From positions 1 to 41,534 of the forward strand of contig CAIOKP010000133.1 of the NCBI GenBank assembly GCA_903858875.1: DNA of 41,534 nucleotides, written 5' to 3'. This stretch comes from an uncultured Sphingomonadales bacterium (GTDB lineage Bacteria > Pseudomonadota > Alphaproteobacteria > Sphingomonadales > Sphingomonadaceae). The translations under genes were made by a program, and so were the position numbers. The notes below the pieces were generated by a model. The model was not told where the DNA came from. It saw nothing but the letters and a program-made list of their open reading frames with translations, and ran no database searches. Every line of letters starts with the position of its first letter. The stretch's first letter is position 1. Positions 17,136-18,606 of this stretch are shown piece by piece.

Positions 17136-18191
17136 TCAGCCCAGCGGCGACCAAGCCTTCTCATCGGCCACTTCCTGTGCGCCGGTAGGCCGCTCGGTCA
17201 CGGTTGCGGCCGGCAGGTAGGATATGACGGCATCCAACAGCGCATCCATCCCCTCGCCCGTCGCGCCGGAGATCGAGAACACCCGGTCGGCGCCGGCCTC
17301 GATAAGCTCTGCGGCATAGGAGGCGGCGATTTCAGCGTCAGCCTGATCGACCTTGTTGAGCGCGATCAGGCGCGGCTTATCATCCAAACCCTCGCCATAG
17401 GCAGTTAATTCGCCATCGATGATATCCATCGCCTCGACCGGGTCCTTGCCGGCAATGTCGATCAGGTGGATCAACACGCGGCACCGTTCGATGTGACCAA
17501 GGAACCGATCGCCGATCCCGGCGCCATCGGCAGCGCCAGCGATCAGGCCCGGAATGTCGGCCAGCACGAATTCACGCGCCTTGTGCCGAACCACGCCCAA
17601 TTGCGGGCGCAGCGTGGTGAAGGGATAGTCGCCCACCTTCGCATTGGTATTGGCGAGGTGGTTGATAAACGTCGACTTGCCCGCGTTGGGCAAGCCCACC
17701 AACCCGACATCCGCCAGCAGTTTCAGCCGCAGCCAGACATACATTTCCTGCCCCGGCCAGCCCGGCCCGTGCTGTCGCGGCGTACGATTGGTCGAGGTTT
17801 TATAGCTGGCATTGCCGCGCCCACCATCGCCGCCGCGCAGCAAGGTATAGCGCTGGCCCGCTTCGGTCAGGTCGAGCAACACTTCCTCGCGGTCGTCGTC
17901 GAGGACCTGCGTGCCAACGGGAACATGAATGACCAGATCGTCGCCGCCGCCGCCGGTACGGTTCTTGCCCATGCCGCCGCTGCCGCGCGGGGCTTTGAAA
18001 TGCTGCGTATAACGAAAGTCGATCAGCGTGTTGAGGCCCGCCACCGCTTCGAAAATGATGTCGCCGCCCTTGCCGCCGTCACCGCCATCGGGGCCACCGT
18101 ATTCCACGTATTTTTCGCGGCGAAACGCGACCGCACCCGGACCGCCGCTGCCTGAACGGATGAAGATCTTGGCTTGGTCGAGAAAATGCAT
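17136..18191 (-). CDS. obgE: GTPase Obg/CgtA
   Basis: MHFLDQAKIFIRSGSGGPGAVAFRREKYVEYGGPDGGDGGKGGDI...DVGLVGLPNAGKSTFINHLANTNAKVGDYPFTTLRPQLGVV...LADIPGLIAGAADGAGIGDRFLGHIERC. The ORF-track N-terminal extension is not Obg. Confidence 0.97.
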   Translation of the reverse strand: MHFLDQAKIFIRSGSGGPGAVAFRREKYVEYGGPDGGDGGKGGDIIFEAVAGLNTLIDFRYTQHFKAPRGSGGMGKNRTGGGGDDLVIHVPVGTQVLDDDREEVLLDLTEAGQRYTLLRGGDGGRGNASYKTSTNRTPRQHGPGWPGQEMYVWLRLKLLADVGLVGLPNAGKSTFINHLANTNAKVGDYPFTTLRPQLGVVRHKAREFVLADIPGLIAGAADGAGIGDRFLGHIERCRVLIHLIDIAGKDPVEAMDIIDGELTAYGEGLDDKPRLIALNKVDQADAEIAASYAAELIEAGADRVFSISGATGEGMDALLDAVISYLPAATVTERPTGAQEVADEKAWSPLG

Positions 18192-18255
18192 GGGTTTGGG
18201 TCCGGCGGTCTTGAAATAGGAAGCGTCCCGCCAGACCATTGGGTCCGCCGGATGC

Positions 18256-18347
18256 GGCATCAGCCCGCACCTTTGGCCGGCGCGCCCCGAAATATCCCGA
18301 TGCCGAGATATCCCGATAGATGCCGAACAGAGGTGCGGGCTGGTGCC
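18256..18347. repeat. Long imperfect inverted repeat (17-nt arms, 16/17 complementary) between tRNA-Ala and obgE
   Basis: Arms ggcatcagcccgcacct (18256-18272) and aggtgcgggctggtgcc (18331-18347); 58-nt spacer with direct repeats atatcccgat (18292, 18308) and tgccga (18301, 18321). Confidence 0.7.
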
Positions 18348-18392
18348 ACGCGAGGACCGGGCATTCGCCCGATCCGTATCAACGCAAAGGAA

Positions 18393-18468
<76 letters not shown>

Positions 18469-18606
18469 GTTCCACTGCGAGCTTGCAAGGTTTGGGCAAA
18501 GCTATCGCTCCGCCGCCATGCGAGAGACGATCCATTAGCGAAAGCACCGCACACAGGGAAGCCAAAAAAACGCCCGGTGCCAAAGTTTATTGGCAAGGCC
18601 GCGGTT

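Follow-up and report, generated by a model that had tools for sequence, protein, structure and literature searches.

Described systems most closely related to the locus

The palindrome considered here lies between tRNA-Ala and obgE in the window, that is, the whole stretch of DNA analyzed (41,534 nucleotides), and is compared below with MITEs, CGTC-tagged REPs and insertion sequences (IS) of the IS5 family. The window genome belongs to the Novosphingobium group. Its probable relatives form a family dispersed in Sphingomonadales, with intact copies in a few genomes.

MITEs are typically AT-rich (PMC10969869). The intact relatives of the palindrome resemble them in being about 154 bp long, noncoding and intergenic, in having terminal inverted repeats and identical short flanks, in occurring in many copies with stable stem-loops, and in sharing a genome with an IS whose ends are nearly identical. 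They differ from MITEs in their central palindrome, which is very GC-rich, and in two additional hairpins. Across the family, the arms and ends vary between copies yet remain complementary, which is a further difference; the copy in the window, moreover, has lost both the terminal repeats and the target duplication.

CGTC-tagged REPs, as described in PMC3733652, are 20–40 bp long, with a stem of 8–9 bp, a loop of 4–5 nt and the CGTC tag, and the alphaproteobacteria carrying them include two Sphingobium/Sphingomonas-type species (PMC3733652). The present family is likewise made up of dispersed extragenic alphaproteobacterial palindromes with stems varying in sequence. Compared with REPs as presented in that source, it differs in its central stem of about 34 bp, its terminal repeats and its TNA duplication. 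No CGTC-tagged 8–9 bp hairpin of the form described in PMC3733652 was found in the window element, whose stem is 20 bp.

IS5-family insertion sequences have ends (GAGWCTGTTTGGAAAA) nearly identical to those of the palindromic element, and both are flanked by TNA duplications. Unlike the IS, the palindromic element is noncoding, and its central palindrome was not seen at the ends of the IS copies.

Structure of the hairpin in the window

On the minus strand, tRNA-Ala(CGC) is followed by a short hairpin, the palindrome, a second short hairpin and obgE (Table 1), the ATG of which lies 64 nt past the palindrome core. The preliminary description gave arms of 17 nt (18256–18272 and 18331–18347), complementary except for one plus-strand G-T pair (16 of 17). 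This is correct and slightly understated: pairing reaches 20 bp, and 18 of the 20 positions are Watson–Crick. Both remaining pairs are G-T on the plus strand and C-A mismatches on the minus strand, which carries the tRNA and obgE, so that G-U pairs could form on the antisense strand only. The hairpin has a minimum free energy of −58.6 kcal/mol (z −8.34), and none of 200 shuffled sequences was equally stable. No second inverted repeat of equal strength (20-nt arms, at least 18 matches, span up to about 140 nt) was found in the 41.5-kb window.

Two copies each of atatcccgat (18292 and 18308) and tgccga (18301 and 18321), reported earlier as direct repeats, are present in the interior. A single imperfect tandem duplication within the loop accounts for both; its copies differ by a 4-nt gap on the minus strand.

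The two short hairpins occupy the positions of the left (tRNA side) and right (obgE side) flanking hairpins of the family. A hairpin resembling the left one is also present in the core-less spacers of the relatives L106, L109 and L115; the left hairpin may therefore be a native tRNA trailer.

Table 1. Features of the tRNA-Ala/obgE region in the window.
Feature	Coordinates	Strand	Basis
tRNA-Ala(CGC), upstream neighbour	18393–18468	−	
Short hairpin GGATCGGGC-GAAT-GCCCGGTCC, between tRNA and core	18354–18375	−	Fold and spacer alignment
Quasi-palindromic core, 20-bp stem (18256–18275 / 18328–18347), 52-nt interior	18256–18347	−	Pairing, fold, covariance model R1
Imperfect tandem duplication in loop, copies 18292–18306 and 18308–18326	18292–18326	−	Sequence comparison
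Short hairpin CCGGCGGACC-CAAT-GGTCTGGCGG, obgE side of core	18227–18251	−	Fold; alignment to the matching L124 hairpin
obgE, 351 aa, downstream neighbour	17136–18191	−	PF01018 GTP1_OBG, E 1.3e-58

The dispersed palindromic family

Multiple copies, which the preliminary description expected of a MITE in BLASTN searches, did not appear: the 112-nt region gave only chance-level matches of 16–25 nt against its own genome and 60 genus genomes. The family was recovered through the outer arms only, not by whole-region BLASTN. The outer arm GGCACCAGCCC(A/G)C was found in palindromes at other loci, and a pattern search revealed palindromes of this kind in many genus genomes, several of which had more than one; the pattern matches numbered 17 for G089 and 14 for G158, compared with 0–4 per genome in the reversed control. 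In many genomes the same palindrome adjoins unrelated genes.

A covariance model (R1) was built from 21 family copies, with the window left out. With this model, the E-values of which are rough, the family was detected in 164 of 196 genus genomes (E ≤ 0.01) and, across the order, in 97 of 251 sampled genomes representing 27 of 72 sampled genera (E ≤ 1e-6). These genome counts rest on the G set alone, and the G genomes overlap with the named L loci; copy numbers per genome are lower bounds, with at most 22 candidates scored in each. Searches of the open-access literature did not reveal any account of this family in sphingomonads.

The aligned family cores have a central stem of about 34 bp starting with GGCACCAGCCCRC. 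For eleven stem pairs, at least one copy has both partners changed, and 63 pair-cells show two-sided changes vs. 9 with one-sided changes, an excess expected of arm re-matching. Covariation by itself would falsely point to a structured RNA here. Many independent copies are available, so compensated changes without G-U intermediates can be used to tell DNA-level upkeep of a palindrome from RNA selection.

Intact copies and the IS5-family partner

Intact elements (G002, G089, G116) are usually 153–154 bp long, with GAGNCYGTTTGAAAA terminal repeats located about 40 nt outside the base of the central palindrome and a small hairpin on each side of the core. Full copies are bounded by identical 3-bp flanks in 11 of 11 cases, 10 of these being TNA. 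Intact copies are intergenic and have no coding capacity. The form with terminal repeats is intact in these few genomes only; many core copies end differently.

The partner IS was reached starting from the transposase domain PF13340. In G116, which also carries the small palindromic elements, an IS of 905 bp is present in two copies (L358, L365); it ends in GAGWCTGTTTGGAAAA, is flanked by TTA or TAA duplications and encodes a transposase of the IS5 family (NF033580, E 3.2e-71; PF01609 and PF13340). The IS of this type presumably belongs to the IS427-type subgroup of that family. Related ends were found on further IS of the same kind (L357, L375). A search around the MITE ends for pairs of terminal repeats at transposase-sized spacing gave only elements of 153–177 bp and one 276-bp pairing, with no transposase. 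An intact copy matched only two plasmid records by BLASTN; in the one inspected, no annotated genes were located nearby. Judged by sequence, the intact copies bear the features of an IS5-derived MITE and would have been spread by transposition.

Among the TNA duplications flanking the small element, TAA and TGA are frequent (L173, L174, L177 and similar copies, G002), and many copies lie 22–50 nt beyond a gene end by a rough ORF call; insertions may therefore often hit stop codons. The same core was also observed joined to several kinds of ends that look unrelated, such as GCCTGATCCGAAA or GAGTCTTTGTTGGGTGCGC (L023, L182, L134, L135, L141). In some G089 copies the two sides carry unlike end types, suggestive of an exchange between cores and ends.

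Relationship of the window copy to the family

With model R1, which had been built without them, positions 18252–18351 of the window scored 37.7 bits on one strand and 36.8 bits on the other. The better match corresponds to a rough E-value of 8e-6 in 121 kb, or 2e-4 over its own genome. The palindromes of L102–L104 scored 28–33 bits and canonical copies mostly above 90, and, clear family copies apart, no score above 17.7 bits was obtained from the genus spacers (57 kb) or the other loci (344 kb). The covariance score partly rewards any stable hairpin, so that 37.7 bits overstates the sequence kinship.

The sequence case for kinship consists of about 13 nt per arm, the position and the loop resemblance. 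Save for one transition, the 13-nt arm end GGCACCAGCCCGC agrees in register with the family majority at every position of both arms, and the family arm ends GGCACCAGCCCRC and GYGGGCTGGTGCC are present in register in the window copy. The window loop CGGGATATCTCGG is partly similar, by eye, to the family loop motif near AGGATACACT (GGATATCTCG vs. GGATACACTCG). In the model alignment, the inner C-rich stem of the family, KCCCCCRCCCGRCCWCCC, and its complement are absent from the window copy, which continues with the unrelated ACCTCTGTTCGGC. No TNA target-site duplication was found in the window copy, and no element boundary could be placed there. Terminal repeats GAGNCYGTTTGAAAA were not found anywhere in its own genome (G000, about 90% complete, 397 contigs), nor did pattern and model searches of this assembly give a second clear copy, the next best candidate scoring 22.7 bits (E 0.38).

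The window copy is read as a decayed relative (relic) of the family, not as a MITE itself, because the arm ends and the position are shared but the inner stem, terminal repeats, target duplication and a second copy are lacking. A small MITE-like element was one of three options offered initially, and it comes nearest to this reading; the arms (17–20 bp), which that option took as 17-bp terminal repeats, are instead the base of the central palindrome.

Probable origin of the hairpin

The hairpin is probably a decayed core copy of the dispersed Sphingomonadales palindromic repeat, and not a conserved obgE control element. An IS5-family transposase recognizing GAGNCYGTTTGAAAA-type ends could have mobilized copies of the family in trans, and one such copy would have landed in the tRNA-Ala/obgE spacer, presumably a tolerated intergenic site. 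This copy would subsequently have lost its ends, as their absence shows, and most of the inner C-rich stem, and its loop may have gained the small tandem duplication. Complementarity of the arms could be kept up mainly at the DNA level, via template switching or arm-to-arm correction, and not via selection on obgE RNA. Template switching is able to create and to maintain hairpins (PMC8794818). If the hairpin now affects tRNA 3′ processing or obgE expression at all, this would be a by-product, and a 20-bp stem in a putative readthrough transcript could serve as an RNase III substrate.

A wider interpretation would regard the family as an undescribed, order-wide palindromic mobile element, the arms of which are matched by DNA-level correction instead of RNA selection, some copies (e.g., that between tRNA-Ala and obgE) having been co-opted as transcript boundaries or protein-binding sites. 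This interpretation as a whole is conceivable, and we consider it unlikely.

The tRNA-Ala/obgE spacer in Novosphingobium and alternative explanations

The order tRNA-Ala → obgE is kept in 122 of the 131 Novosphingobium loci sampled, from which 122 tRNA-Ala/obgE spacers were extracted. A palindrome with CAGCCC/GGGCTG arms occurs in six of them (the window, L102, L103, L104, L124 and L178), and possible remnants were noted in L129 and L214/L022. Canonical family cores are carried by L124 and L178. The four other copies represent a diverged form, and the window, L102, L103 and L104 could therefore hold a separate subfamily or an older shared insertion.

Other genus spacers contain different hairpins, many of them terminator-like, i.e., GC-rich and followed by T runs directly after the tRNA. 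By analogy with these, the repeat, whatever its origin, could now separate transcription of tRNA-Ala from that of obgE as a terminator or insulator. The orientation of genes around sampled family copies (18 between convergent genes vs. 6 between divergent ones, by a crude ORF and GC3 rule) is also consistent with this. However, scanning 18150–18600 for intrinsic terminators did not reveal any candidate ending in a T run, and the interior of the palindrome is a long loop, not a compact hairpin with a U tract, which makes this function unlikely.

A structured obgE leader, suggested in the preliminary description, does not hold as a conserved element. The palindrome is absent from 116 of the 122 orthologous spacers, including those of close relatives such as L105–L110, and the six spacers bearing it are scattered on the ObgE tree, where at least three changes are required; a conserved cis-regulatory leader was rejected on this distribution. 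A leader or processing hairpin selected as RNA (for RNase III cleavage, as a stabilizer or as an obgE regulator) might be considered from its location between two co-oriented genes of well-kept order, from the very stable fold, and from the palindrome with the same outer arm in the spacers of the three nearest ObgE relatives, L102–L104. Against it stand, besides the distribution, the occurrence of the same palindrome beside unrelated genes in many genomes and the C-A mismatches of the sense strand at positions where the antisense strand has G-U. In an Rfam search with a relaxed threshold, the element had only chance hits, all below the family cut-offs. Selection as RNA at this locus is thus very unlikely, and the candidate obgE regulatory RNA gives way to a repeat family found in at least 27 Sphingomonadales genera.

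A lineage-specific quasi-palindrome born in place by template switching, with a chance resemblance to the family, would agree with the unlike inner stem and loop and with the single copy in the window genome, but is highly improbable given 13 nt identical in register with the family arm ends (estimated chance about 1e-6 to 1e-5) and the canonical family cores that L124 and L178 carry in the same position.

Other palindromes were also observed in this spacer. By a core-motif count, 23 of the 122 genus spacers (L231, L197, L195, L258, L116, L126 and others) contain another long palindrome of about 138 nt, mostly located directly at the 3′ end of tRNA-Ala. Its outer arms vary between genomes and mostly are still complementary, around the conserved core CTGCGCTTCCGGTGCTCACG...CGCTGCGCGCCGGTTCTCG. 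Seven genomes were checked for exact matches to the core motif, and three of them have just one, at the tRNA-Ala site; dispersed copies elsewhere (L382–L386) have locus-specific arms. In L220 and L252 the spacer holds a palindrome of a third type, CCTTCGACAAGCTC(A/C)GGATGAGCGG, which indicates that the tRNA-Ala/obgE spacer has received several repeat families.
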